Source: Puniceicoccaceae bacterium Marseille-Q1082
GTDB taxonomy: Bacteria; Verrucomicrobiota; Verrucomicrobiia; Opitutales; Intestinicryptomonadaceae
NCBI GenBank assembly: GCA_904424815.1
Contig: CAJGBI010000002.1
Location: forward strand, 124,001-188,000
DNA length: 64,000 nucleotides
Direction of reading: 5' to 3'
The position numbers and the translations under genes were made by a program. This document shows positions 7,138 through 62,527 of this stretch, piece by piece. Positions within the stretch are counted from its first letter, which is position 1; each line of letters opens with the position of its first letter. The notes under the pieces were generated by a model. It did no database searches and had not been told where the DNA came from. It saw only the letters and a program-made list of their open reading frames with translations.

Positions 7138-8202
7138 ATGAAAAATCTAACAGCGCTCATAATTCTCGCGATATGCCCGGCAATGTTTGCGGCAAACGCT
7201 TCTCCGGAACAGAATTACAAACAAGCTGAAAAATTTCAGAAAAGCGAAAAAAATGAAGAGGCATTCGAATATTTTTTAAAAGCCGCCAAGCAGGGAGATG
7301 CAGAAGCCCAATATAACCTTGGGGTTTGCTATCGCAAAGGCTATGGAGTAGAAAAAAATCTCACAGAAGCCGTTAAATGGTTGCGCAAAGCTGCCGATCA
7401 GGGATTCCCAATGGCGCAATATATCCTTGGGAAGTGCTATGGTGATGGCATCGACGTAAAAAAAGATCTCTCGGAAGCTGTTAAATGGTATCTCAAAGCC
7501 GCTGTTCAGGGACTTGCAGAGGCTCAATTTGACCTTGGAAATTGTTATCTCGCCGGCTATGGCGTAAAAAAAGATCTCTCGGAAGCCGTTAAATGGTACC
7601 GTAAAGCCGCCGATCAGGGATTCCCAATGGCGCAATATGCACTTGGGAGTTGTTATGCCAACGGTGAGGGAGTAGAAAAAGATCTCACAGAAGCCGTTAT
7701 ATGGTACCGTAAAGCTGCCGATCAGGGACTTGCGGAGGCGCAATTTAACCTTGGGGTTTGTTATTACAACGGTTATGGTGTAGAAAAAAATCCAGCAGAA
7801 GCCGTTAAATGGTATCGCAAAGCTGTCGATCAGGGATTTGCACAGGCACAATGCAACCTTGGAATTTGCTACTTCAACGGCGATAGCGTAGAAAAAGATT
7901 ACAAACAAGCCGTTATATGGTTCCGTAAAGCTGCCCATCAGGGAGATGCACAGGCGCAATGTATGCTTGGGTTTTGCTATGAAAATGGCTATGGCATAGA
8001 AAAAGACTATAAACAAGCTACTATATACTATCATAAAGCTGCCAATCAAGGACTTGTGGAAGCTCAATTTAACCTTGGGATTTGTTATTACAACGGCTAT
8101 GGTGTAGAAAAAAATCCAGCAGAAGCCGTTAAATGGTTTCGTAAAGCCGCCAATCAGGGAGATGCGCAGGCACAAGCCATACTTGAAGATTTGTCAAAAT
8201 AA
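7138..8202 (+). CDS. Exported Sel1-repeat (SLR) protein A
   Basis: A 354-residue protein with a Sec signal peptide (about residues 1-19, ending MFAANA). A TPR-like helix pair follows, then eight consecutive ~36-residue Sel1 repeats and a partial ninth. Each repeat has the pattern AxAQxxLGxCYxxGxGVEKDxxEAVKWYRKAADQG. Sel1 repeats form alpha-alpha superhelices that scaffold protein-protein contacts; the partner cannot be read from sequence. The repeats are also closely similar at DNA level (108-bp units). The gene is visibly more A+T-rich than its neighbours and its paralogue follows 210 bp downstream. A strong AAAGGGA precedes the ATG. It is likely periplasmic. The specific function is unknown. 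Confidence 0.9.
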   Translation: MKNLTALIILAICPAMFAANASPEQNYKQAEKFQKSEKNEEAFEYFLKAAKQGDAEAQYNLGVCYRKGYGVEKNLTEAVKWLRKAADQGFPMAQYILGKCYGDGIDVKKDLSEAVKWYLKAAVQGLAEAQFDLGNCYLAGYGVKKDLSEAVKWYRKAADQGFPMAQYALGSCYANGEGVEKDLTEAVIWYRKAADQGLAEAQFNLGVCYYNGYGVEKNPAEAVKWYRKAVDQGFAQAQCNLGICYFNGDSVEKDYKQAVIWFRKAAHQGDAQAQCMLGFCYENGYGIEKDYKQATIYYHKAANQGLVEAQFNLGICYYNGYGVEKNPAEAVKWFRKAANQGDAQAQAILEDLSK

Positions 8203-8412
8203 GCAAGCGGACAACGACTTTACGCAGAAAAACCTTATTAAAAAAATCTTTACCTCGCGACTACATAAACAAAACACAAGTATACCAATTCCATGCAAAT
8301 AAATTTTTACTCCACCTATGCAAACGCAAATTACTTTTCTGAAAAATCAGCAAAAGCACGACGCCGTTAAAGACTTCAACACAATCAACAACCTAATTAA
8401 AGTTGAGCAAAA

Positions 8413-9378
8413 ATGAATAATATAAGAAATACATTAACAACAATAACAGTTGCGATATGTATTGCTCTATTTGCGGCAGGTTGTTCTCCGGAATACTATT
8501 ATGAAAAGGGAAAAGAACTTTCAAAAAACGGAGAATACGATAAGGCTTTTGAGTATTACCAGAAAGCTGCTGAAAAGGGATATGCGCAGGCGCAATTTGC
8601 ACTTGGGATTTTCTATTACAGCGGCAACGGTGTAAATAAAGATTACAAACAAGCCGTTATATGGTTGCACAAAGCTGCTGAACAGGAACTTGCAGAAGCT
8701 CAATATATCCTTGGGGGTTGTTATTACACTGGGAAAGGCGTGGTAAAAGATTATGAACAAGCTGTTAAATGGAATCAAAAAGCCGCTGAACAAGGACATG
8801 CGCAGGCTCAATTTGCACTTGGGTGTTGTTATTTCGCCGGTAATGGCGTAGAAAAAGATTTCGCAGAAGCTGTCAAATGGTACCGCAAAGCTGCTGATCA
8901 AGGAGATGCGCAGGCTCAATTTAACCTTGGTTTTTACTATTATAACGGCTATGGTGTAGAAAAAGATCTTACAGAAGCCGTCAAATGGTACCGCAAAGCT
9001 GCCGATCAAGGACTTGCGTGGGCGCAACTCAGCCTTGCGGGTTGCTATGACATGGGCGATGGCGTAGAAAAAGACCTATCAAAAGCCATCAAATGGTTAC
9101 GCAAAGCTGCTGAACAAGGATATGATCAAGCGCAATTTACACTTGGGCTTTTCTATGCCGGAGGCTATGGTGTAGAAAAAGATCTTGCAGAAGCCGTCAA
9201 ATGGTACCGCAAAGCTGCCGATCAGGGATTTGCGGAGGCGCAATATAACCTTGCGCTTTGTTATCACAACGGCGATGGTGTAGAAAAAGATCTTGCAGAA
9301 GCCGTTATATGGTTGCGTAAAGCTGCTGATCAGGGAAATGCACAGGCGCAAAATGCGCTTAGAAAATTGCCCAGATAA
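8413..9378 (+). CDS. Sel1-repeat lipoprotein B
   Basis: A 321-residue paralogue of the preceding gene. It has a lipoprotein signal with lipobox FAAGC (Cys24), a GEYDKAFEYYQKAAEKG TPR-like start, then seven full Sel1 repeats and a partial one. The pattern and codon choice match gene A, so the pair probably arose by tandem duplication with repeat-number change. One copy is soluble or exported and this one is lipid-anchored. It is likely on the periplasmic face of a membrane, as a scaffold of unknown partner. Like gene A it is A+T-richer than the surrounding chromosome. No clear Shine-Dalgarno is seen before the ATG. Confidence 0.9.
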   Translation: MNNIRNTLTTITVAICIALFAAGCSPEYYYEKGKELSKNGEYDKAFEYYQKAAEKGYAQAQFALGIFYYSGNGVNKDYKQAVIWLHKAAEQELAEAQYILGGCYYTGKGVVKDYEQAVKWNQKAAEQGHAQAQFALGCCYFAGNGVEKDFAEAVKWYRKAADQGDAQAQFNLGFYYYNGYGVEKDLTEAVKWYRKAADQGLAWAQLSLAGCYDMGDGVEKDLSKAIKWLRKAAEQGYDQAQFTLGLFYAGGYGVEKDLAEAVKWYRKAADQGFAEAQYNLALCYHNGDGVEKDLAEAVIWLRKAADQGNAQAQNALRKLPR

Positions 9379-9437
9379 AATTATGTAGGGATATCTTATT
9401 TTAAAAATTTCTATTCTTTCAAACTGCAAAACTTATC

Positions 9438-22052: not shown

Positions 22053-22200
22053 TATGAAGGGGGCGGCAGGGCCGCTCCCATTGAAGGGGGCGGCGGGGCC
22101 GCCTGCCGTTGAAGGGGCTGGCGCCCCTTACGGGCGCAAGGTGCGCCAGCCATTGAAGGGCTGCGCCCTTACGAAGATTGGCTTCGCCAATGCTTCTATC
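22053..22200. repeat. Tandem REP-like units beginning TTGAAGGG
   Basis: Four head-to-tail units start at about 22053 (ATGAAGGGG variant), 22081, 22109 and 22153. Each begins with (T/A)TGAAGGG and continues into a G+C-rich self-complementary stretch such as GGGGCCGCC or GGCTGGCGCCCC. Related single copies are seen near 47389 (inverted) and 60296. Confidence 0.6.
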
Positions 22201-22217
22201 CCCTCCACGTTCCCCGC

Positions 22218-22248
22218 AAAAAAACGAACCTCTCATAAGAGGTTCGTT
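22218..22248 (-). terminator. Terminator for the glgB run, AACGAACC family
   Basis: Perfect 11-bp stem (22223-22233 with 22238-22248), loop CATA, and on the minus strand a run of seven T. Orientation suits the minus-strand glgB transcript ending at 22636, though it is ~390 bp downstream. Belongs to a recurrent stem family (AACGAACC...GGTTCGTT). Confidence 0.65.
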
Positions 22249-22306
22249 AATACTTCCGGAGTTCGTTCCACAAAACCCCAGCTTCCCCGATTTGGCGCAA
22301 TGAAAA

Positions 22307-22357
22307 CGAAAGCTTATTTTATCCGAAGCGCAGCGAGGCTATAAAATAAGGCTTTCG
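22307..22357. repeat. Long imperfect hairpin
   Basis: Arms 22307-22322 and 22341-22357 pair over 16 bp with one bulged base; the stem is A+T-rich in the inner half and closes an 18-base loop. Purpose unknown; it might be an RNA-stabilising 3' structure or part of a repeat element. Confidence 0.55.
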
Positions 22358-22635
22358 GGAAGGATAAAATGCGTTGGCATTTTATTCGGATATATACAAA
22401 ACTCCATATGCGGAAACTTCGGGGGCAGGCGCATTGGCTTTGCCAATCGCCGCAGGGGGCTTGCCCCCTCTGCGGCAGGCGCGCCCCGCGCCCGCCCAGC
22501 GCAATCCCGCTCGGAATCATATTCCGCGCTACTGAATTGCCGGCGCGCCCGAAAACCGCAAAATTATTTTGCGGAAACATTGCAGCCGGCAGCAATTCAG
22601 CTATCCATATCGCCGAAAAAAACGCGCCGAAAGGG

Positions 22636-52170: not shown

Positions 52171-53004
52171 TCAGTGCGATCGCAGGTATTCGACGCACTT
52201 TTTTATTTGCGGGAGATTGTTGTCCCAGTCGGCCTCGTACTCTATCACGAGGAAGCCGCCGTAACCCTGCCTGTCGAGCTCCGCAAGCATCCTGCCGACC
52301 CCGAGTTTCCCATCGCCGAGCGGCACGCACTGGTTGCGCGGGTTGCCGAACTCCTTCTGGTCTTTGAAGTGGATGGAGCCTATTTCGCCCTCGAGGATTT
52401 TCAGATTCCCGACGGGGTCGATTCCGCAGCGGCTCAAATGCCCGACGTCCGGATTCGCCTTAACGTTGTCGTAGCGCGAGGCGTACCTCTTAACGAGGTC
52501 GGCGTCGTAGTACTGGTTCGCGCTGTCTTTGGCGTGGTGGTGGACGCACATCGTCACCCCGTACTTTTTGCCGACCCTGTCCCATATCTCCCACGAGGCG
52601 ACCGGATCTTCGGTGAGCACGCGGGTTATGCCCAACTCTTTGGCAAATTTGCAGACGGCCTCTATGTTCTTTTCGCTCCCCCCGCCGGTGACGCCAAAGC
52701 TCACGGGCTTTATCCCCGCGTCTTTGAGGATTTGTTTGAGGTACGCCATCTGTTCGGCGTTCAGCGACGGGCCGACCTTGGCGTCCGGATACTTGCCGCC
52801 AAGCTTTTGCCCTGGAAACAGCTCTATGCCGTCGATGCCCGCGCCCTTGAGCTTTTCGAGCGTCTGGACGAGCGTAATCTTGTGCATCGAATACGCCTGA
52901 ACCGCCACGTTGCGGTGTTTGGGGCGCGCGCCGTCGCCGCCCTCCGAAAGCGCGCACCCGCCGAGGGCGAGCGCCGCGAAAACCGATAAAATTATACGCT
53001 TCAT
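52171..53004 (-). CDS. Sugar isomerase/epimerase-like TIM-barrel lipoprotein (copy 2)
   Basis: A 277-residue paralogue of copy 1. The start at 53004 gives a lipoprotein signal with lipobox ALGGC; an ATG at 53013 is an alternative. It shows the same putative metal ligands: Glu in VLTEDPVA, Asp in NPDVGHL, His in IHFKDQKEFG and Glu in LVIEYE. It is the first gene of the pair and divergent from the Tat-exported paralogue at 53174 (169-bp spacer). The two copies differ in anchoring: this one is lipidated, the other soluble. Role as for copy 1, inferred. Confidence 0.85.
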   Translation of the reverse strand: MKRIILSVFAALALGGCALSEGGDGARPKHRNVAVQAYSMHKITLVQTLEKLKGAGIDGIELFPGQKLGGKYPDAKVGPSLNAEQMAYLKQILKDAGIKPVSFGVTGGGSEKNIEAVCKFAKELGITRVLTEDPVASWEIWDRVGKKYGVTMCVHHHAKDSANQYYDADLVKRYASRYDNVKANPDVGHLSRCGIDPVGNLKILEGEIGSIHFKDQKEFGNPRNQCVPLGDGKLGVGRMLAELDRQGYGGFLVIEYEADWDNNLPQIKKCVEYLRSH

Positions 53005-53173
53005 AAAAGACATATATCCGCCGATTCCGCCCCTATGCAAGCAAATTCGCGGGCATTCCCGCCGTCGCCGCCGCCGAAAATCCGCGCGCCGCGTCAAAAA
53101 AAAATTGCATTGCGGGGCAAAATGGGAGATACTCGGATTTTAAACAACCAATCCAAACGCAATTATACATATT

Positions 53174-54115
53174 ATGAACAGAAGAGATTTCACCAAGACC
53201 GCTTTCGCCGCCGTCTGCGGAGCGGCCGCAGCCCCCGCCGCAACCTTCGCCCAATCGGGAGGAAAGGATCCCGCGTTCAAGTGCAAATTCGCCCCGAACC
53301 TCGGGCAAATGCGCGAAACTTGCAAGGGTATGTCGCCCGAAGACAAAATCCGCTATTTCTACGACAGGGGCTTCAGGGCGCTCGAAGACAACGGAATGCC
53401 CGGCCGCCCGCGGGAAGTCCAGGACGCCATCGCCAAGACAATGGAGAAGCTCGGCATGGAGATGGGGGTGTTCGTCGCCCACGCCGAATGGGGCAACGCC
53501 TCAATGACAGGCAACCGCATCGACATGAAAAAGCGCCAGCGCGACCCCCAGGCCTGCCGCGAATACTGGGCCGACAAAATGAAAAACGTCTGCGAGCTCG
53601 CAAAGAGGGTCAACGCAAAGTGGTGCACGGTGGTTCCCGGGCTCGAAGACCCGAGCCTCGAATACGAATACCAGTTCGCCAATGTCGCCGACCACTTGAA
53701 GCGCATCTGCGAAGTTCTCGAAAAGAACAACGGGCCGACGATAGTCCTCGAACCCCTTAACATAAAGAACCACCCGAGCCTCTGGCTGAAACGCATTCCG
53801 CAGGCGTACGCGCTGTGCAAGGCGGTCGGCAGCAAACACTGCAAAATTCTCGACGACCTCTACCACCAGCAGATCACCGAAGGGTGCCTGATTCCCAACA
53901 TAGACGAGGCGTGGGATGAAATAGCGTACTTCCAGGTCGGCGACGTGCCCGGGCGCAACGAGCCCACTACAGGCGAAATCAACTACAAAAACGTATTTAA
54001 ACACATTTGGGACAAGGGATACCGCGGAATAATAGGCATGGAACACGGGCAGAGCGACTGGTCGAAAGCCGGCGACGAAAAGCTCGTGGCCGCCTACCGC
54101 TCCGTAGACCTCTGA
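53174..54115 (+). CDS. Tat-exported TIM-barrel hydroxypyruvate isomerase-like protein (copy 2)
   Basis: A 313-residue paralogue of the 37726 gene. Twin-arginine signal RRDFTK at residues 3-8, then an Ala-rich segment to about 26. It shows the same landmarks: GRNEPTTGEINYKNVF, IWDKGYRGIIGMEHG, and metal-ligand candidates Glu in IVLEPLN, Asp in ILDDLYH, His-position replaced by Gln in YFQVGDVPG, and Glu in MEHG. The His-to-Gln change at the third ligand, compared with SFHVADAPG in the 37726 protein, is notable. It is the outer gene of the left inverted-repeat arm, which begins in its last codons. Confidence 0.82.
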   Translation: MNRRDFTKTAFAAVCGAAAAPAATFAQSGGKDPAFKCKFAPNLGQMRETCKGMSPEDKIRYFYDRGFRALEDNGMPGRPREVQDAIAKTMEKLGMEMGVFVAHAEWGNASMTGNRIDMKKRQRDPQACREYWADKMKNVCELAKRVNAKWCTVVPGLEDPSLEYEYQFANVADHLKRICEVLEKNNGPTIVLEPLNIKNHPSLWLKRIPQAYALCKAVGSKHCKILDDLYHQQITEGCLIPNIDEAWDEIAYFQVGDVPGRNEPTTGEINYKNVFKHIWDKGYRGIIGMEHGQSDWSKAGDEKLVAAYRSVDL

Positions 54116-54370
54116 TTTTGCATGGGCGCGCGGAACTGCCGCCGATGTCCCGTTTAAAAAAGAAGAGTCCGCCGCCGCTCCCGCGGGCGGACTCTTTTTA
54201 ATTCCCGCCCGGGCGGCTAGCCCGCACCGATTCGGTGAACAGTTGTGTTAAGAAATGCCCGCGCGCGCCAACGCGACGCGCGGGGAGTTGCGTCTCTATG
54301 GGATAGCTGGGATAGGCGAATTGCAAGGCAACCGCCGCAGGGAACTTAGCCCGTTCATCGGAAGGCGCGC
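54108..54370 (+). repeat. Left arm of a near-identical inverted repeat
   Basis: 263 bp beginning in the last codons (ACCTCTGA) of the 53174 gene and ending 21 bp before the carboxyltransferase stop. Its reverse complement recurs at 60285-60546 with only a few substitutions and one 1-base indel. It carries a bidirectional terminator at 54161-54199 and a short CACCGATTCGGTG hairpin. No transposase-like frame lies inside; the small frames it does contain are spurious. Confidence 0.92.
54161..54199 (+). terminator. Bidirectional terminator in the left repeat arm
   Basis: Stem AAGAGTCCGCC (54163-54173) with GGCGGACTCTT (54186-54196), A-rich to the left and T-rich to the right. It sits between the convergent 53174 gene and the carboxyltransferase gene and can serve both. 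Confidence 0.85.
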
Positions 54371-54391
54371 CGCCAGCCTGCGCGCGGCAGA

Positions 54392-55861
54392 TTATGCGAA
54401 CTCCACTGAGACGTCTTTTTCCACGCCGTCTATGGTGATGCGCAGCTTCTCGGGGGCTTTCGAAGCGGACGCCTTTTGGATTTTTTCCTCGGGCTTTTTA
54501 AGCTCGAAAGCCGAACGGGGCTTCTTGTAGAGATCTTCGAGCTGCTGGGGGAACATGGCGTAGATTACGCAGTGCTCGTCGTCGTCCTTTATGCCCTTTT
54601 CGCGCAGAGCCTTGCGCAGATCCTCCATGCCGGGCTTTTTGAGGTCTGCGGGGCGGCAGTCGATCGGGTCTTTCTTGGCCTTTTCCTGCGCGAGCTTGCG
54701 GACTTCCGGGTCGACGGGGGCGGGCGTGCGCCCGTAGTAGCCGAGGGCGATGTCCATCGCTTGCGGCGTGAACATCTTCCAGCGCCCGAATTTGACGTTC
54801 ATCATCGCCTGGGTGCCGACGATCTGGGAAGTCGGCGTGACGAGCGGAATCCAGCCGAGCTTTTCGCGCACGTAGGGGACTTCCGCAAACACTTCGTCGA
54901 ACTTGTCCTCCATGTTCTGCTCTTTGAGCTGCACGCGGAAGTTGGAAAGCATTCCGCCGGGCACCTGGTAGACTAGCGCGTCGGTGTCGATTACCTCGTT
55001 TTTGAGCGCGGTGTAGAAGCCGAGCTTGTCGTAGACCCCCTGAAAATACTTGCGCAGTTCGGCGAGCTTTTCGAGGTCGTAGTCGGGGCGGCGCGGGTTG
55101 TTTTCGAGCATCGCCATCATGCGGGCGGTGTCCGGCTGGCCGGTTCCGTTGGCGAACGGGGAAATTGAGGTGTCCACGCAATCTACGCCGGCGTCGATTG
55201 CCATGCAATAGGTGGGCGCGCCCATTCCGGCGGTTTCGTGCGTGTGCAGAATCACGGGAACTTTTATGTTGGACTTCAGCCCCCTGACGATTTCCGCCGC
55301 GATATACGGGGGAATGAGCCCCGCCATATCCTTGATTACGACTGCGGAGCAGCCCATTTCTTCGAGTTCGCAGCCCATGCGGACAAAGCTCTCGACAGTG
55401 TGCACGGGGCTGCGGGTGTAGCAGATTGTCCCGTGCGCCTCCTTGCCGGCGCTCTTGGCCGCGTTGATGGAGCATTCCATGTTGCGGGTGTCGTTGAGCG
55501 CGTCGAAGATTCTAAAAATGTCCATTCCGTGCTTGGCGGAGGCGCGGACGAACGCCTCCACAACGTCGTCCGGAAAGTGCGAGTACGCCACTATGTTCTG
55601 CCCCCTGAACAGCATCATGTGCTTGGTTTTGGGGCACGCCTTTTTGAGGGCGTCGAGCCTGTCGAAGGGAAATTCTCCGAGGAAGCGCAGCCCCGCGTCG
55701 ATGGAAGCCCCTCCCCAGGTCTCGAGTGCGTTGAAGCCCATGCCGTCGAGAATGGGACAGGCGGGGAGCATCATGGAAGTCGGCATGCGGGTCGCCGCGA
55801 GCGACTGGTGGCCGTCGCGCAGGACGGTGTTATTGAAGACTACGGGTTTGTTTGTTGCCAT
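54392..55861 (-). CDS. Carboxyltransferase subunit (transcarboxylase 5S / OadA / PycB-like) without a biotin domain
   Basis: A 489-residue pyruvate/oxaloacetate carboxyltransferase. Active-site residues match the transcarboxylase 5S pattern: Asp16 in LRDGHQS, the carboxylated Lys177 in VIKDMAGL, and His206/His208 in LHTHETAG. The conserved PVC-type segment VPGGMLSNFRVQL and FPQQ near the C-terminus are present. The C-terminus ends after a short linker, with no MKM biotin site, so a separate biotin carrier must exist. With mutAB and fumarase it suits methylmalonyl-CoA:pyruvate transcarboxylase or oxaloacetate decarboxylase function. Divergent from miaB. Confidence 0.9.
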   Translation of the reverse strand: MATNKPVVFNNTVLRDGHQSLAATRMPTSMMLPACPILDGMGFNALETWGGASIDAGLRFLGEFPFDRLDALKKACPKTKHMMLFRGQNIVAYSHFPDDVVEAFVRASAKHGMDIFRIFDALNDTRNMECSINAAKSAGKEAHGTICYTRSPVHTVESFVRMGCELEEMGCSAVVIKDMAGLIPPYIAAEIVRGLKSNIKVPVILHTHETAGMGAPTYCMAIDAGVDCVDTSISPFANGTGQPDTARMMAMLENNPRRPDYDLEKLAELRKYFQGVYDKLGFYTALKNEVIDTDALVYQVPGGMLSNFRVQLKEQNMEDKFDEVFAEVPYVREKLGWIPLVTPTSQIVGTQAMMNVKFGRWKMFTPQAMDIALGYYGRTPAPVDPEVRKLAQEKAKKDPIDCRPADLKKPGMEDLRKALREKGIKDDDEHCVIYAMFPQQLEDLYKKPRSAFELKKPEEKIQKASASKAPEKLRITIDGVEKDVSVEFA

Positions 55862-56044
55862 ATTTCAGTATTCCTTCTTTTGATCCGACCGCAATTCCGG
55901 CGTTCCGAAATAATTTTTTAAAATTCTGCGCGGCTTCGACAAAGCTTGCAAAAGTTTAAAAAACTACCATCGGTTGTATCGGATTAAATTTGCAAGTTGT
56001 AAAATAGGTGTAAAATCGCCCGCGATTTCAAGAAAAAACTGCCG
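55862..56044. promoter_or_regulatory. Divergent promoter region of the carboxyltransferase gene and miaB
   Basis: A 183-bp A+T-rich spacer. Towards miaB, TTGCAA (55990-55995) and TAAAAT (56011-56016) with a 15-bp gap form a weak promoter candidate. Confidence 0.3.
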
Positions 56045-57430
56045 ATGAAAGTCTACCTGCGCACATACGGATGCCAAATGAACGAGCGCGATTCGGAGCA
56101 CATCGCGGCGGATTTCGCCGGCCGCGGATGGGAAATCGCCGACTCTCCCGACGATGCCGACGCGATAATCGTAAACGCATGTTCCGTGCGCGAACAGGCG
56201 GAGCTGAAAGTAGTCGGGCTTTTGGGCAGGCTGGTTTCGGCGCGGCTGGCGCGGCCGCGCGGGGGATTGCCCGCAATAGGCCTCATAGGGTGCATGGCGC
56301 AGAATGTCGGCGCGAAAATCGTGTCCAAATTCCCCGAGATAGACTTTGTGGCGGGCTCCCGCAAAACGGCCGCAGTTGCCGGCATCGCCGAAGAAATCGT
56401 CCGCAGGAGGCTCGCCGGAAGGGGGCACCCGCCTTTGCCCGAGGGAATGGGCAGGCGCACGGCGAAGTTTTCCGACGCCTTTGTGGACGTCTCCGACGAC
56501 CCCTCCGATTTTCTGAAAATCGACAAGCACCTCTCGGCTCCGCCGAGCGCGCTGGTATCGGTAATGCAGGGCTGCCAGATGAACTGCTCGTACTGCATAG
56601 TCCCGAAAGTGCGCGGCGCGCAGCGCTCGCGGCCGATGGCGGACATACTGCGGGAGATCGAGCGCCTCGCGGAGCGCGGCACGCGGGAGGTCACCCTTCT
56701 GGGGCAGGTCGTCAACGCCTACGGGCGGGAATTTCCGCGGGAGGGCGGCATATCCAACTTTGTGAGGCTCCTGCGCGCGGTAAACGAAATCGGTGGAATA
56801 GAGCGCATAAGGTTCACTTCGCCGCACCCGTCGTATTTTTCCGACGAGCTGATAGACTCCTACGGATCTCTCGAAAAGCTTTGCGAATACGTTCACCTGC
56901 CTTTGCAATGGGGCAGCGACGCAATCCTAAAAAAAATGAACCGCCCCTACCGCGCCGGCAGGTTTCTGGACATAGTTTCGCGCCTTAGGAAGCGCGTCCC
57001 GAACATATCCGTGTCAACCGACATAATCGTGGGGTTCCCGGGCGAGACGGAAGAGGATTTCGAGCTCACGCGCTCGGCGTTCCGCGAGGCGGGCTTCGAC
57101 ATGGCTTTCATTTTCAGGTACAGCCCGCGCGCGGGCACGCCGAGCGCCGAAATGCCCGACGACGTTCCGGAGGAGGAAAAGCGGCGGCGCAACGCAGAGC
57201 TGTTGGGCGAGCTCGAAAAGACTTCGCGCGCATACAACGGCTCCCTCGTCGGAAGCGTGCAGGAAGTGCTCGTCGAGGGCCCCGCGCGGCGGGGAGAGGG
57301 CGTCATGATGGGCAGGACGCGCACGCACAGGAAGGCTCTGTTCAAGGCGCCCGAAAGCCTTGCGGGAAGCCTCGCGCGCGTAAGGGTTTTATCGGCAACC
57401 ACAACCGCGCTGGAAGCGGAGTTGGCCTGA
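56045..57430 (+). CDS. miaB: tRNA-2-methylthio-N6-dimethylallyladenosine synthase MiaB
   Basis: A 461-residue radical-SAM methylthiotransferase that modifies A37 of tRNAs reading UNN codons. N-terminal UPF0004 cysteines are Cys10 (YGCQMNE), Cys46 (NACSVRE) and Cys83 (IGCMAQ). The radical-SAM motif CxxxCxxC is in GCQMNCSYC near residue 177. Further family marks are HLPLQWGSDAILKKMNRPY and the TRAM domain at the C-terminus (about 395-455). The length is normal. It lies in the segment bounded by the inverted repeat. Confidence 0.97.
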   Translation: MKVYLRTYGCQMNERDSEHIAADFAGRGWEIADSPDDADAIIVNACSVREQAELKVVGLLGRLVSARLARPRGGLPAIGLIGCMAQNVGAKIVSKFPEIDFVAGSRKTAAVAGIAEEIVRRRLAGRGHPPLPEGMGRRTAKFSDAFVDVSDDPSDFLKIDKHLSAPPSALVSVMQGCQMNCSYCIVPKVRGAQRSRPMADILREIERLAERGTREVTLLGQVVNAYGREFPREGGISNFVRLLRAVNEIGGIERIRFTSPHPSYFSDELIDSYGSLEKLCEYVHLPLQWGSDAILKKMNRPYRAGRFLDIVSRLRKRVPNISVSTDIIVGFPGETEEDFELTRSAFREAGFDMAFIFRYSPRAGTPSAEMPDDVPEEEKRRRNAELLGELEKTSRAYNGSLVGSVQEVLVEGPARRGEGVMMGRTRTHRKALFKAPESLAGSLARVRVLSATTTALEAELA

Positions 57431-57550
57431 GAACCCCCGATTCCTTGCCGGTTTCGGCAGGCTCGGGAAATTTGCGTGTTGAATATTTCCGAAAATCCCC
57501 TAAACTTTTAAATGTTGCACCAAAAAATCTTACTGAAACGGAGGGGTAAA

Positions 57551-59011
57551 ATGAAATCTGTTTTGAAGGCCGTTTGCGCGCTAGCTTCGCTCGCCGCCGC
57601 GCTGAATGCGGGGGAGCCCGAAATAAAGCCCGACGATTTCCGAAACGTCTATGGGATAGCGTGGCGCGGGACTGCCGACGAAAACCTCGACTTCGCCCGC
57701 CAAATGGGCTACACCCACGTATTTTACCAGTGGGGCATGGAGCGCAACCCAAAAGCCAAAGGATTCAAGTTTTTTATAGAGTCGCCCGAATACGCGGTAT
57801 ATCCGCGAGTAATCGACACGACGAAAAAATATTCTCCGGAGCAAATCAAATGGTGGGAAACCAACTGTTCCCTCCTGAGCCTCGACAAGCCGTTCCCGTG
57901 GAATATCGCCCCCGGGTGGAGAAGCGGCAAGGGGTTCACCGCCACGCTCGACCTCCAGCAGAAGAGGGTCATCAGGGAGATAACGGACAAGATAATAGAG
58001 CGGGTGAAGAAAATCGAGGAGCAAACCCCCGGATTTAAGTTCGCGGGGTTCGCGTGGGACGTCCCCCAGCCCGCCGGCGACTTCTGGGACGGAACGAAAG
58101 ACGACTGGTTTGCGAACGGCCGCCAGGTGACGCTCGCGCACTGGACGGGGAAAGATTCGGGCATAAGGCACCCCGACACCGTCCACGACTACCCGACATA
58201 TTCGCAAGGGCACATGGAATTTTACAGGCATCTCTTCGAGCGCGCGCGGGCGGAGCTCAACAAAGACGCAAAATTCATAGTCGAACCCGGCGGCCCCTAC
58301 GAACAGTGGGTGAAATTTTTCGAATCCCCGCCGTACAGTGAAATGAAGCCCGAAGAGCGTAAAAAATATGAGGCCGACCTCGTGGCGGTTGAAGCCGCCA
58401 CCACGGATTTCGTGACGGACAAGCGGCTGTTCGCCAAGGGCACGGTAAAGCCGTCGCAGATGTGCTCGACGACGCCCAACGCTTTTGAGGAGCCCGTCTC
58501 GCGCGAGATTGCGGGGCTTGCGGCGGCCAACGGCGCGTGGACGGCGTTTTTCGGAATGCCCGAGGGCAACGGGCACACGCCCGGGTTCAGGAGCATTTCG
58601 CAGATGCCCGCGCGCCTGAAACTCGTAAAGGCCATACCCGTATGGGAAAACATTCTCAACGTGCCGCTCGAAAAGCGCAAATGGGACGGAAAAACTTACG
58701 AGAGCCCGACGGCGCGGATTTCCTCCGGAGCCTACTCGGGACTCCAGCCCGAGACGGACAAGCTGTTTTTCGTGTTCCTTTCGGCGGACGGAAAGGCGAA
58801 AATTCCGGAGGGGTACGAGGCGGGCCCGATATATCTCGCCGACGGCCTGTTCAGGGAGATACGCCCGCTCTTCGACAACCCAAAGAGCTCGTACCAGCGC
58901 ACTCTCCAGGACGGGCGGACGATGAAAATCGAGAACTCCGAAATAATGCCGACAGCCTCATACATAATAAACAACGGCTATATAATGCACCTGAGAAAGA
59001 AGGCGAAATAG
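57551..59011 (+). CDS. Exported protein of unknown function, possibly TIM-barrel glycosidase-like
   Basis: A 486-residue protein with a Sec signal (MKSVLKAVCALASLAAALNAG). The start at 57551 is preceded by a textbook GGAGG. It contains VYGIAWRGTADENLDFARQMGYTHVF near the N-terminus and KFAGFAWDVPQPAGDFWDG and KFIVEPGGPYEQWV in the middle, a layout like a (beta/alpha) barrel with Asp/Glu at strand ends, but I recognise no named family. Possible roles include glycan or polysaccharide processing, as for neighbouring exported enzymes. No operon partner: miaB is 120 bp upstream on the same strand. Confidence 0.6.
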   Translation: MKSVLKAVCALASLAAALNAGEPEIKPDDFRNVYGIAWRGTADENLDFARQMGYTHVFYQWGMERNPKAKGFKFFIESPEYAVYPRVIDTTKKYSPEQIKWWETNCSLLSLDKPFPWNIAPGWRSGKGFTATLDLQQKRVIREITDKIIERVKKIEEQTPGFKFAGFAWDVPQPAGDFWDGTKDDWFANGRQVTLAHWTGKDSGIRHPDTVHDYPTYSQGHMEFYRHLFERARAELNKDAKFIVEPGGPYEQWVKFFESPPYSEMKPEERKKYEADLVAVEAATTDFVTDKRLFAKGTVKPSQMCSTTPNAFEEPVSREIAGLAAANGAWTAFFGMPEGNGHTPGFRSISQMPARLKLVKAIPVWENILNVPLEKRKWDGKTYESPTARISSGAYSGLQPETDKLFFVFLSADGKAKIPEGYEAGPIYLADGLFREIRPLFDNPKSSYQRTLQDGRTMKIENSEIMPTASYIINNGYIMHLRKKAK

Positions 59012-59163
59012 GCTGCCGTTGAAAAACGGCGCAGCGAAAGACAAAAGCGGAGAACTCCGCCGCATTTTGGAATTGAAGCCTGCTGGGCGACGCATAGCCG
59101 CAGGGGGAGGCGCGCAAATTCGGGCGTATTTCGCCTGTATAACGCATTCAAAAGATGCGGCTG

Positions 59164-59523
59164 CTATCGGGCGGCGGATTTTCTGTTCGCGCTTCCCCAG
59201 TCGCACATCGCGTCCAGCACGGGAATCAGCGACTCGCCTTTTCTTGTGAGCGAATACTCGACTTTCGGCGGTATCTGCGCGTAGGCTTTGCGTTCTACAA
59301 TGCCGTCCGCCTCCAGTTCCCTCAGCGACGCCGCAAGCGTTTTGAAGGAAATCGTGCCGATTTTCCTCTTCAGCTCGTTGAACCTCAATACAGGGCCGGT
59401 TTCGGCAATCCAGAACAGGATTATCATTTTGTATTTTCCGCCTATCGCAGAGAGCGTGTATCCGAAGCCCGTATCCTCCAGCCTGACGCCAGTTTTGCTG
59501 CACAGTTTGCCGGCTTTTCTCAT
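59164..59523 (-). CDS. HxlR-family transcriptional regulator
   Basis: A 119-residue winged-helix regulator. Family pattern: TLSAIGGKYKMIILFWI, then RFNELKRKIGTISFKTLAASLRELEADGIVER and the wing KVEYSLTRKGESLIPVL. A Cys near the N-terminus (Cys8) resembles the redox-sensing Cys of some HxlR members. It is divergent from a flavin-reductase-like gene (59736) and the spacer contains two TACT/AGTA inverted repeats, so it probably represses that gene in response to reactive electrophiles or redox stress. The start at 59523 is the first ATG. Confidence 0.92.
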   Translation of the reverse strand: MRKAGKLCSKTGVRLEDTGFGYTLSAIGGKYKMIILFWIAETGPVLRFNELKRKIGTISFKTLAASLRELEADGIVERKAYAQIPPKVEYSLTRKGESLIPVLDAMCDWGSANRKSAAR

Positions 59524-59735
59524 GCTCTACTTTTGGTTAGTATATAACATATTTGTGCGTACTTTACAAAAAGTAAAAAATCCCGTATGATAAAATCAAT
59601 GAAATTTTCAATTCACAGGCGGCAAAACGCCGGAGGCTAGCCGAAAATCCGAAATTCCGCGGCAGCTCCGCGCGGCGGCGGAGGCAATCCGAACGCCCAA
59701 CGCCATTTACGGCAACTGCAACGAAAGGAAATATC
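59524..59735. promoter_or_regulatory. Divergent promoter region of the HxlR gene and the flavin reductase
   Basis: A 212-bp spacer with an A+T-rich half next to the regulator. TATAAC at 59543-59548 is a -10 candidate lying between two operator-like repeats. Confidence 0.4.
59528..59575. promoter_or_regulatory. Two candidate HxlR operators (TACT-N7/8-AGTA)
   Basis: TACTTTTGGTTAGTA at 59528-59542 and TACTTTACAAAAAGTA at 59560-59575: two imperfect inverted repeats with TACT/AGTA ends, similar in style to known HxlR-family (YodB-type) operators. They flank a TATAAC. Direct regulation by the adjacent HxlR is inferred. Confidence 0.5.
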
Positions 59736-60275
59736 ATGAAAATATTGGCAATCACCGGAAGCCCGCGCAGGCGTGGCAATTCGTCGAGGTTAGCGGACGA
59801 GTTTATCGCCGGCGCCGAGGAATCGGGCTGCGAAGTAATCCGCTTCGACGCGGCTTTCAAAAAAATCCACCCATGCGTAGCATGCGAAAAATGCCATAGC
59901 GGCGACGGCGGATGCGCGTTCAAGGACGACATGCAAGAGCTCAACCCGCATCTCTTGGAGGCGGACGGAGTGGTATTCGCCTCCCCAATATACTACTACG
60001 GAATGAACTCCCAGATAAGGAGCGTAATAGACAGGTTTTACGCCAACGACGCCGCGCTGCATGTCCCGAAAAAGACGGCGCTTCTGCTGTCTTTTGCGGA
60101 CGACACTTTGGAATCAGCGGAGGGCGCAATCGCTTCATACAGGGGCATGGCGAATTTTCTCGGCTGGAAAGACGCGGGGGTTGTCGCCGCAAAAGGCTGC
60201 CACGCCGCAGGCGACGTCGATAACACAGAATACCTGAAAGAAGCGCGCCGCCTTGGAAGAAACTTCGCCAAATAA
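59736..60275 (+). CDS. NADPH-dependent FMN reductase/flavodoxin-fold iron-sulfur-like flavoprotein
   Basis: A 179-residue flavodoxin-fold protein. FMN-binding loop GSPRRRGNSSRLADE near the start and ASPIYYYGMNSQIRSVIDR in the middle. A Cys cluster PCVACEKCHSGDGGC near residue 47-60 suggests an Fe-S site as in iron-sulfur flavoproteins. AAAGGAAA precedes the ATG. It is probably an electron-transfer or detoxifying reductase induced via the divergent HxlR regulator. The right repeat arm begins 10 bp after its stop. Confidence 0.88.
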   Translation: MKILAITGSPRRRGNSSRLADEFIAGAEESGCEVIRFDAAFKKIHPCVACEKCHSGDGGCAFKDDMQELNPHLLEADGVVFASPIYYYGMNSQIRSVIDRFYANDAALHVPKKTALLLSFADDTLESAEGAIASYRGMANFLGWKDAGVVAAKGCHAAGDVDNTEYLKEARRLGRNFAK

Positions 60276-60284
60276 AGGCGCAAA

Positions 60285-60546
60285 GCGCGCCTTCCAATGA
60301 AGGGGCTAAGTCCCTGCGGCGGTTGCCTTGCAATTCGCCTATCCCAGCTATCCCATAGAAACGCAACTCCCCGCGCGTCGCGTTGGCGCGCGCGGGCATT
60401 TCTTAACACAACTGTTCACCGAATCGGTGCGGGCTAGCCGCCCGGGCGGGAATTAAAAAGAGTCCGCCCGCGGGAGCGGCGGCGGACTCTTCTTTTTTAA
60501 ACGGGACATCGGCGGCAGTTCCGCGCGCCCATGCAAAATCAGAGGT
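60285..60546 (-). repeat. Right arm of the near-identical inverted repeat
   Basis: 262 bp, the reverse complement of 54108-54370 apart from a few substitutions and one 1-base indel. Its outer end lies in the last codons (complement of ACCTCTGA) of the aminotransferase gene, and its inner end is 10 bp after the flavin-reductase stop. It includes a copy of the bidirectional terminator. Confidence 0.92.
60455..60498 (-). terminator. Bidirectional terminator in the right repeat arm
   Basis: Stem 60458-60468 with 60481-60491, same sequence as the left-arm copy, with A/T runs on both sides. It sits between the convergent flavin-reductase and aminotransferase genes. Confidence 0.85.
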
Positions 60547-61405
60547 GGACGCCGATTTTCGGCGCTACTTCATTAAAAGCTTCGATTAGGCGCTTTGTGA
60601 TTTCGCCGGGTTTGCCGTCGCCGATTACGCGCTTGTCGAGCTCGACGAGGGGAATGAGCTTGGCGGCGGTGCCGGTCAGGAAACATTCGTCCGCCGTCCA
60701 GATGTCAAAGCGCGTAATGGGGGTTTCGAGAAGCTCTATTCCGAGCTTCTTGGCAAGCTCTATTACGGTGCCGCGGGTCATGCCGCCGAGCGAGCCGCAG
60801 CTGATGGGAGGGGTAATCAGCTTGCCGTCGAAAACGATGAACACGTTGTCCCCGCTGCATTCGGCGACATACCCCTCGTTGTTGAGAAGGAGGCATTCCT
60901 CGTAGCCCGAATTGTGCGCCTCGATTTTCGCGAGAATGTTGTTGAGATAGTTGAGGCTCTTGACCATCGGCGGGAGAGCCGCCTGGGAATTGCGGCGCGT
61001 GGGGACGGTGAGGGCTTTGAGCCCGCATTCGTAGAGCTCTTTGGGGTAGAGCTGGATTTCGTCGGCTATTATGACGAGCTGCGGATCCTCGCAGGAGAAC
61101 GGCGAGAGCCCGAGCTTGCCCCTGCCGCGCGAGACCACGAGGCGGATATAGCCGTCCTGGAGGCCGTTGGTACGGCAGGCGTCGCACACGGCGTCGATTA
61201 TCTGCTGTTTCGACCATGGCATGTCGAGCATTATGGCCTTTGCGGAGCGGAATAGGCGGTCTATGTGCTTGTCGAGCTTGAATACGTTGCCGCTGTAAAG
61301 GCGGATTCCCTCAAAGATTCCGTCGCCGTAAAGAAAACCGTGGTCGAAGACCGACACCTTTGCGTCGTCCTTGTCGTAATACTTTCCGTTGATGTAGACT
61401 TTCAT
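60539..61405 (-). CDS. ilvE: Class IV aminotransferase, probably branched-chain (IlvE-like)
   Basis: A 288-residue PLP enzyme. The start at 61405 was chosen because GGGAA precedes it and MKVYINGKYY is the usual N-terminus. Motifs: DHGFLYGDGIFEGIR, the PLP lysine Lys149 in PPMVKSLNYLNNILAK, AECSGDNVFIV and SCGSLGGMTRGTVIELA. The overall form matches IlvE of the short type; a D-amino-acid or 4-amino-4-deoxychorismate role cannot be excluded. It is followed by the right repeat arm, whose end overlaps its stop. Confidence 0.88.
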   Translation of the reverse strand: MKVYINGKYYDKDDAKVSVFDHGFLYGDGIFEGIRLYSGNVFKLDKHIDRLFRSAKAIMLDMPWSKQQIIDAVCDACRTNGLQDGYIRLVVSRGRGKLGLSPFSCEDPQLVIIADEIQLYPKELYECGLKALTVPTRRNSQAALPPMVKSLNYLNNILAKIEAHNSGYEECLLLNNEGYVAECSGDNVFIVFDGKLITPPISCGSLGGMTRGTVIELAKKLGIELLETPITRFDIWTADECFLTGTAAKLIPLVELDKRVIGDGKPGEITKRLIEAFNEVAPKIGVHL

Positions 61406-61507
61406 ATTTTTCCCATGCATTAAAAATTTCCGCGCGGCGGAAAAATCCGGCTCCGCGGCATCTTATATGCGCAATCTTTTACCCGCCCCGCCGAATCGTC
61501 AAACGAA

Positions 61508-62527
61508 TTATTCGCCGGAGATAAAGAATTTGCCGCCTTTGAGGGCGAAATCCCGAATCGTCAGGGTTTCGTTTTTTGAGTTGGGAGCGTGGTAGGAGAT
61601 TTTCAGCTTGCCGCCGAAAGTTTTAAAAACCATGGCGTGCCCGCCGTCGTCGGAGTTGAGGCATTCCGGATCGTGGATCCATTCGCCGTCGATTCTGCCG
61701 GACGGCGAGCGCGCGACGCCTATGCGGTACTTGCCGCCGGAGAAAGACGACCACGTCATGTAGAGCGAGCCGTCCGGCAGGCGGTTGACGACGGGCGCGT
61801 CGGTGACATGCGTTCCGGATTTCTCCTTAACCCACGGAGCGGAGGATGCTGAAAACAGCGCTTTCGGCTCGCCTAAGGTTTTTTTGAGATCGCGGGAAAT
61901 CCTTTGGGCGATTATCTGACCGTCGCCCACTTGCAGCCACTCGCGGCAGTACACGAGCCACATCGAGCCGTCGGAATCCTCGAAGAGCGCGCCGTCGAGC
62001 GCCATCCAGCCCACGGGCGTTATCGGGGCGTTGGCGAGCGGCTTGAAGCCGCCGTCTGGCCTGTCGGAGACTAAAACCGAACAGCCGCGCATGGGCTCGA
62101 GCCTTCCGCGAACGGTTTTTACCGAAGGCTCACGGGCGCTGAATGTGGCGATAATGTAATATTTGCCGTCCACGAGAAACATGTCGGGCGCCCAGAAGTC
62201 GGACTTTCCCCAAAAATCCGCGGGCGGAACGAACGAAGGGCCGACGAGCCGCCAGTTTTTCAAATCTTTGCTCTCGTAGGCGTACAGGGCGTTCCTCCCC
62301 GCGCCGAAGCGCGCGAGCTGCCCGGGGGAAAGCTTCCCGCCGTTGGCGTGCATGTAGTATTTGCCGCTCTTTTTGTCGGCGAACACGAACGGGTCGCGGA
62401 TTTTAAGCTCGGAGGCGGGAATGTCGCAGGAGGCCTCCGCCGCATCGGGCGACGCAAAACCGCAGAGCCGCGCGCAAAACGCGAACGCGAAGAGCGCGGG
62501 CAGGCGCGGCAAAAACCTACTTGCCAT
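61508..62527 (-). CDS. Exported GH43-like glycosidase
   Basis: A 339-residue protein; the start at 62527 opens a Sec signal peptide (MASRFLPRLPALFAFAFCARL). It has the GH43 five-blade propeller marks: IRDPFVFADKK (general base Asp), SDFWAPDMF, WMALDGALFEDSDG and a region VTDAPVVNRLPDG where many GH43 enzymes have the catalytic Glu (EGP). Here Asp-Ala takes that place, a form seen in some GH43 branches, so activity and specificity are uncertain. The family usually hydrolyses arabinose- or xylose-containing glycans. Its first 11 bases overlap the glnS stop region, so it is coupled to glnS. Confidence 0.8.
   Translation of the reverse strand: MASRFLPRLPALFAFAFCARLCGFASPDAAEASCDIPASELKIRDPFVFADKKSGKYYMHANGGKLSPGQLARFGAGRNALYAYESKDLKNWRLVGPSFVPPADFWGKSDFWAPDMFLVDGKYYIIATFSAREPSVKTVRGRLEPMRGCSVLVSDRPDGGFKPLANAPITPVGWMALDGALFEDSDGSMWLVYCREWLQVGDGQIIAQRISRDLKKTLGEPKALFSASSAPWVKEKSGTHVTDAPVVNRLPDGSLYMTWSSFSGGKYRIGVARSPSGRIDGEWIHDPECLNSDDGGHAMVFKTFGGKLKISYHAPNSKNETLTIRDFALKGGKFFISGE

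Follow-up and report, generated by a model that had tools for sequence, protein, structure and literature searches.

Near-identical inverted repeats bounding a five-gene segment of an Opitutales genome are probably copies of a composite gene-end repeat rather than a switch

Two near-identical inverted repeats, here called the left and right arms, bound a ~5.9-kb segment of five genes in Puniceicoccaceae bacterium Marseille-Q1082 (assembly GCA_904424815.1). Both lie in a 64-kb stretch of contig CAJGBI010000002.1 (positions 124,001 to 188,000; hereafter the window), whose coordinates are collected in Table 1. An earlier note on this DNA observed that homologous recombination between the arms would flip the segment, and suggested either a device switching promoter context or a duplicated intergenic element. 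We conclude with good confidence that the arms are two copies of a composite gene-end repeat, recently copied, that likely terminate and insulate convergent genes, and that they are not a switch. Each arm is a composite, with a repeat of family A at its outer end and a repeat of family B, in the opposite sense, at its inner end. Specifically, family A begins at the outer gene's stop codon (the TIM-barrel gene TIM1 on the left, the aminotransferase gene BCAT on the right), bringing with it a hairpin that resembles a two-way intrinsic terminator, and family B follows ~75 nt further in, beside the inner gene's 3′ end (the carboxyltransferase gene CT or the FMN reductase gene). The arms would be mutually inverted because the orientation of family A follows the gene that it trails and the outer genes face each other, and nearly identical because one composite was recently copied onto the other, by duplication or gene conversion.

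The near-identity of the 263-nt left arm to the reverse complement of the 262-nt right arm, as claimed in the earlier note, was confirmed by gapped alignment and self-BLAST: the arms are 98.5% identical, the 263 aligned columns containing three mismatches and one one-base gap. Both arms share the outer 186 nt without a change, and all four differences (arm positions 187, 236, 246 and 252) fall in the inner 77 nt, for which hand arithmetic gives a chance of ~0.007 if differences were evenly spread; such clustering at the inner end would fit a conversion tract. Within the window, no other inverted repeat of 40 nt or more is near-identical: the three others are 70–83% alike, and the longest of them connects two TIM-barrel paralogues. 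The complete arm has two copies in its own genome (2.70 Mb in 3 contigs, rated 96% complete, with the window inside an 853-kb contig), the remaining matches, at other loci, being partial. It was absent from 53 relatives at E 0.001, one of which (G010) may be unreadable, as it also returned nothing for BCAT, CT or TIM1; the nearest named relatives are metagenome-assembled genomes of uncultured Opitutales or Verrucomicrobiota. Further copies in the genome, which the earlier note had proposed looking for, thus exist for the modules of the arm and not for the arm as a whole. Its description of a duplicated intergenic element holds as regards duplication, since the arms are built of two dispersed families; they are not purely intergenic, as they reach the last codon of the outer genes.

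Family A was searched with a model (R1) built from 13 copies, the left-arm copy among them. At least 61 matches were found in the own genome, at no fewer than 49 places once strands were merged; these are lower bounds because scoring covered 150 of the 2457 first-look candidates. An additional weak match (28 bits) at 2530–2684 of the window lies outside the 49 places. Relatives gave three weak matches, in 2 of 22 genomes, so that family A appears to be a nearly species-confined repeat. Its copies dock at stop codons: a same-strand open reading frame (ORF) of at least 250 codons ended between −25 and +30 nt from the start of A at 30 of 46 places, compared with 3.6% of random window positions, and on the far side an ORF of this size ended on the opposite strand at one place. 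With cut-offs of 90, 150, 200 and 250 codons, the counts were 35, 34, 30 and 30 of 46 at the start of A and 9, 4, 1 and 1 on the far side; the 90-codon cut-off was tried first, and background there was high (15%). The ORFs in this test run from stop to stop, some being cut by the end of the locus, and several of the places share clusters (C1:1336 kb, 605 kb and 614 kb), whereas binomial values take them as independent. The test covers 46 of the 49 places, leaving out C1:586792, 614728 and 640248.

A recent subfamily of A comprises 15 copies, nearly identical over ~115 nt, with a sharp start at TTTGGCGAATGC (one copy carries a single change). TGA directly precedes TTTGGCGAATGC in 11 of the 15; it closes the longest same-strand ORF in six (L212, L216, L221, L222, L226, L232), and in five others (L218, L219, L224, L229, L233) the longest ORF continues into the repeat and stops at the repeat's own TAG. 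Twelve of the 15 have GATTTGGCG at the start and CGCCAAATC ~155 nt on, the A copies of the arms themselves being degenerate. Beyond this the recent copies run into long mosaics of further repeat modules, and an alignment of 12 of them revealed the same sharp start, a far end made up of a mosaic of modules, and no readable target-site duplication.

Family B was searched in the same way with a model (R2) built from six copies, including that of the right arm; scoring 150 of 736 candidates gave at least 91 matches in the own genome. It occurs in 4 of 18 relatives, with 16 matches in G003 and one each in G005, G007 and G008, the other 14 having none. The A–B layout of the arms recurs elsewhere: at the 34 A places scored, the nearest downstream B within 450 nt was in the opposite sense at 18, in the same sense at 4 and absent from 12, and B lay ahead of A at only one. 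This count took R2 matches with E below 0.005, dropping eleven weaker ones, two or three of which (L187 and L190; L189, changing sense) would have increased the opposite-layout count. The remaining 12 A places were read by hand, with the opposite layout in both arms, L201, L203 and L211 (clusters already counted). At 22140–22485 of the window, two opposite-sense B copies are accompanied by pieces of the recent A mosaic (GATTTGGCGCAATG), directly after a gene with a PEP-CTERM-like C-terminus, as judged by eye.

Inverted pairs of the same material were present in two of three further regions, which were chosen where A copies clustered and are not an unbiased survey. At C1 ~1462.9–1470.3 kb, two stretches (L246:3937–4955 and L246:10234–11255) pair over 1,022 columns at 98.7% with ~5.2 kb between them, and their A copies trail inward-facing outer genes. 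At C1 about 605–615 kb, the pair extends over 537 columns at 86.6% and the A copies face outward. The third region (L247) held merely a 127-column pair at 76%. A and B copies also open contigs C2 (C2:1–273) and C3 (C3:37–251), and an A copy (C1:1765694–1765814) lies 5 kb short of the C1 end, which suggests that these repeats limited the assembly.

The left-arm hairpin within family A, very stable for its base composition, folds at −26.6 kcal/mol (z −5.6) on the plus strand and −24.4 kcal/mol (z −3.9) on the minus strand, with a stable GC stem and a T run on each strand, a feature of bidirectional terminators. With its stability on both strands and the A and T runs on either side, it is predicted to stop transcription in both directions and is probably a two-way intrinsic terminator. 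Together with the gene layout, it suggests that the arms would serve to terminate and insulate convergent genes. In each arm, the simple terminator scan scored the hairpin on just one of the two strands. The whole arm as a structured RNA was considered and rejected, its folding being weak (z −1.8 and −0.8) with only the A hairpin clear; a single sub-threshold Rfam match in 53000–62000 (24 bits, where the gathering score is 58.8) was dismissed.

The gene layout bears directly on the proposed function. The five genes named in the earlier note do lie between the arms. At the outer arm edges lie the 3′ ends of TIM1 and BCAT, and at the inner edges those of CT and the FMN reductase gene, so that all four point into the arms. 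Each arm therefore parts two convergent genes, and inversion of the segment would swap 3′ partners only, re-aiming no promoter. A promoter scan found three promoter-like sites, no excess over the 2.3 in shuffles, all inside the segment near divergent pairs. Of the six paralogues of the protein without a Pfam match, four are clustered at C1:1618748–1624617. Elsewhere in the window, positions 7259–9402 hold thirteen copies spaced at a 108-bp register; they form two blocks with a 636-bp step between them and perhaps encode a 36-residue protein repeat.

Table 1. Genes, arms and repeat modules around the five-gene segment (window coordinates).
Feature	Position	Strand	Remarks
TIM1, xylose-isomerase-like TIM-barrel protein	53174-54115	+	PF01261; left outer gene, stop codon within arm
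Left arm	54108-54370	+	263 nt
Family A repeat, left arm	54122-54228	+	model R1, 81.5 bits; starts 6 nt past TIM1 stop codon
Terminator-like hairpin, left arm	54160-54199	both	A run before, T run after
Family B repeat, left arm inner end	54305-54371	-	model R2, 73.0 bits
CT, carboxyltransferase subunit	54392-55861	-	PF02436 and PF00682; 3′ end towards left arm
MiaB-type radical SAM methylthiotransferase	56045-57430	+	PF04055, PF00919, PF01938; divergent from CT
Protein without Pfam match	57512-59011	+	six further matches (paralogues) in own genome
HxlR-type regulator	59164-59523	-	PF01638
NADPH-dependent FMN reductase	59736-60275	+	PF03358; 3′ end towards right arm
Right arm	60285-60546	-	262 nt; reverse complement matches left arm at 98.5%
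Family B repeat, right arm inner end	60285-60349	+	model R2, 73.6 bits
Family A repeat, right arm	60426-60532	-	model R1, 81.5 bits; starts 6 nt past BCAT stop codon
Hairpin, right arm	60455-60494	both	sequence identical to left-arm hairpin
BCAT, class IV aminotransferase	60539-61420	-	PF01063; right outer gene, stop codon within arm

The ends of the outer genes look overwritten. BCAT ends here in CTC TGA; among the 34 named loci, the 15 closest all have TAA or TAG as their stop, after isoleucine in 13. TIM1 ends here in GAC CTC TGA, and its eight same-genus full-length best matches (L061–L068; L069, cut by a contig end, L070 and L071 were left out) have one codon more, followed by TAA or TAG. 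With CTC TGA on both outer genes and TAA or TAG in relatives, the edge of the repeat appears to have taken the place of the original end of each gene, and the ACCTCTGA shared by both arm edges probably belongs to the repeat or the copying tract and to neither gene, judging from these comparisons. Two TIM1 matches tell against overwriting: the best match in G011 (L071, 53%, taken as a paralogue) and the match in G021 (L070, another family) both end in TGA. The lower-ranked paralogues L072–L078 have TAG or TAA ends. A bolder proposal, which we regard as rather doubtful, is that family A is an amplifying mobile gene-end that would insert in a fixed orientation at or just before stop codons, substitute the last codons and the stop (with its edge TGA or a short tail with TAG), supply a terminator, and, since its orientation would be dictated by the host gene, seed inverted pairs around convergent genes that then rearrange the chromosome.

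Several observations weigh against reading the arms as copies of a composite gene-end repeat. The arm middle (about arm positions 110–209) occurs at no other locus except as weak matches; the arms are therefore more alike than family membership alone explains, and a specific copying event is needed. No long ORF end precedes family A at 16 of the 46 places in the 250-codon test. Terminator-like sites in the region numbered 13, compared with 10.8 (standard deviation 3.2) in shuffles, and are not above chance. Family B folded no better than shuffles (z +1.5 and −0.4), although the R2 model has 17 pairs. Finally, there is a single assembly with a single orientation of the segment.

The best-surviving alternative, which is compatible with a composite gene-end repeat, is that the segment undergoes unregulated homologous inversion, with RecA-type recombination flipping it at a low rate in a mixed, near-neutral population. 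We consider this plausible, though with the balance tilted against it. The 186 nt of perfect identity, within 98.5% over 263 nt, would make inversion of the 5.9 kb physically possible, and the layout suggests that it would be near neutral for transcription. The own genome also differs from the stretches retrieved from relatives in the order of the genes surrounding BCAT, CT and TIM1. In addition, 9 of 15 named relatives have a thioesterase-like gene (assigned by eye to the hotdog type) directly after BCAT, and the only thioesterase match of the own genome lies on another contig (C1:1746383–1746754), 103 nt after another A copy; A thus stands at both sides of the lost BCAT–thioesterase adjacency, which fits recombination between A copies without proving it. 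Against inversion, the alternative orientation is not seen in the one assembly available, and none of the 20 relative stretches compared retains the five-gene block, so that the comparison of relatives proposed in the earlier note had no block, flipped or otherwise, to set beside this one. TIM1 has its best match on the same contig as CT in G001 only, where the two lie 5.7 kb apart with miaB between them; this order was considered and rejected as a product of inversion, as it is not obtainable by inversion at the arms.

Inverted duplicates can also be left at both ends of an inverted segment by staggered breaks, and the arms could accordingly be the scar of a past inversion, with an inverted copy of the breakpoint at each end. 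Here, too, the segment has inverted duplicates at its ends, and its outer neighbours are unlike those in the relatives compared. However, the repeat edges coincide with the natural edges of family A, at the stop codon, and of family B, which a scar need not respect, and the uninverted state occurs in none of those relatives; we judge this explanation unlikely. Still less probable is that the 5.9-kb segment and its arms moved together, like a composite mobile element. CT and BCAT are on different contigs in all 11 same-genus relatives that have both, many of these assemblies being fragmented, which would agree with such a unit. Nevertheless, 8 of 10 CT stretches from relatives have miaB next to CT in divergent orientation, which makes the two an old pair, and the segment contains no transposase or integrase by Pfam (one of its five proteins having no match).

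A regulated inversion switch that gives the five genes, or those beside them, a different promoter context, as the earlier note envisaged, receives very little credence from us. Arm length and identity had favoured it; however, the four adjoining genes all converge on the arms, the A hairpin is stable on both strands, and the arm modules are dispersed in the genome. No invertase, integrase or other recombinase was found by Pfam among 16 neighbouring proteins (two of them without a match), a scan that did not extend to invertases across the whole genome; the general resolvase RuvC is encoded ~11.6 kb beyond the right arm, on its right-hand side. In invertons, as here, inverted repeats bound a segment, but the available text of PMC11892184 describes repeats of 10–40 nt recognised by an invertase, which the arms far exceed. 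Unlike invertons, the present case involves a five-gene segment, with no recombinase among the scanned neighbours and no re-aimed promoter; none of the three inverton features looked for (arm length, nearby recombinase, re-aimed promoter) was found. An assembly artefact is barely credible: the 3-contig genome is not closed and checked, but the arms differ at four positions, have unique flanks and lie well inside a long contig.

Among known systems, bidirectional intrinsic terminators between convergent genes are an established class, and with its A run, GC stem and T run on both strands the arm hairpin resembles them; unlike the usual examples, it is carried by a multicopy dispersed repeat. 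REP and REPIN elements are palindromic extragenic repeats, often found at the 3′ ends of genes. REP sequences measure 20–40 nt in the available part of PMC3733652, whereas family A is about 110–120 nt long, and the RAYT transposase domain Y1_Tnp (PF01797) had no match in the own genome while being present in 6 of 14 control genomes. The ERIC, RU-1 and RU-2 repeats, which resemble miniature inverted-repeat transposable elements (MITEs), are, in the available portions of PMC2229807 and PMC2759123, short, stem-forming and dispersed in many copies, like family A; many dispersed, lineage-restricted copies, a MITE-like feature, are likewise found in family A. In one case described in the available portion of PMC2759123, RU-1 is fused to the 3′ end of a gene, apparently eliminating the normal stop codon and adding residues. 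These repeats are enterobacterial, unlike the present lineage, and the likeness is one of description and not of sequence comparison. They also have TA termini, where the recent A subfamily instead has the ends GATTTGGCG and CGCCAAATC, and, unlike them, family A has a fixed polarity behind stop codons and is joined with family B in mosaics. By analogy, family A probably works like a terminator-bearing, ERIC-type dispersed repeat.

Overall, the case shows how so conspicuous an inverted repeat can come about with no switch involved: a gene-trailing repeat of fixed sense gives inverted pairs at every point where two genes are turned towards one another. From the repeat family itself, one could learn how gene ends are replaced in bacteria, and the A copies flanking the lost BCAT–thioesterase adjacency make a link between dispersed repeats and the loss of gene order testable within the genus.

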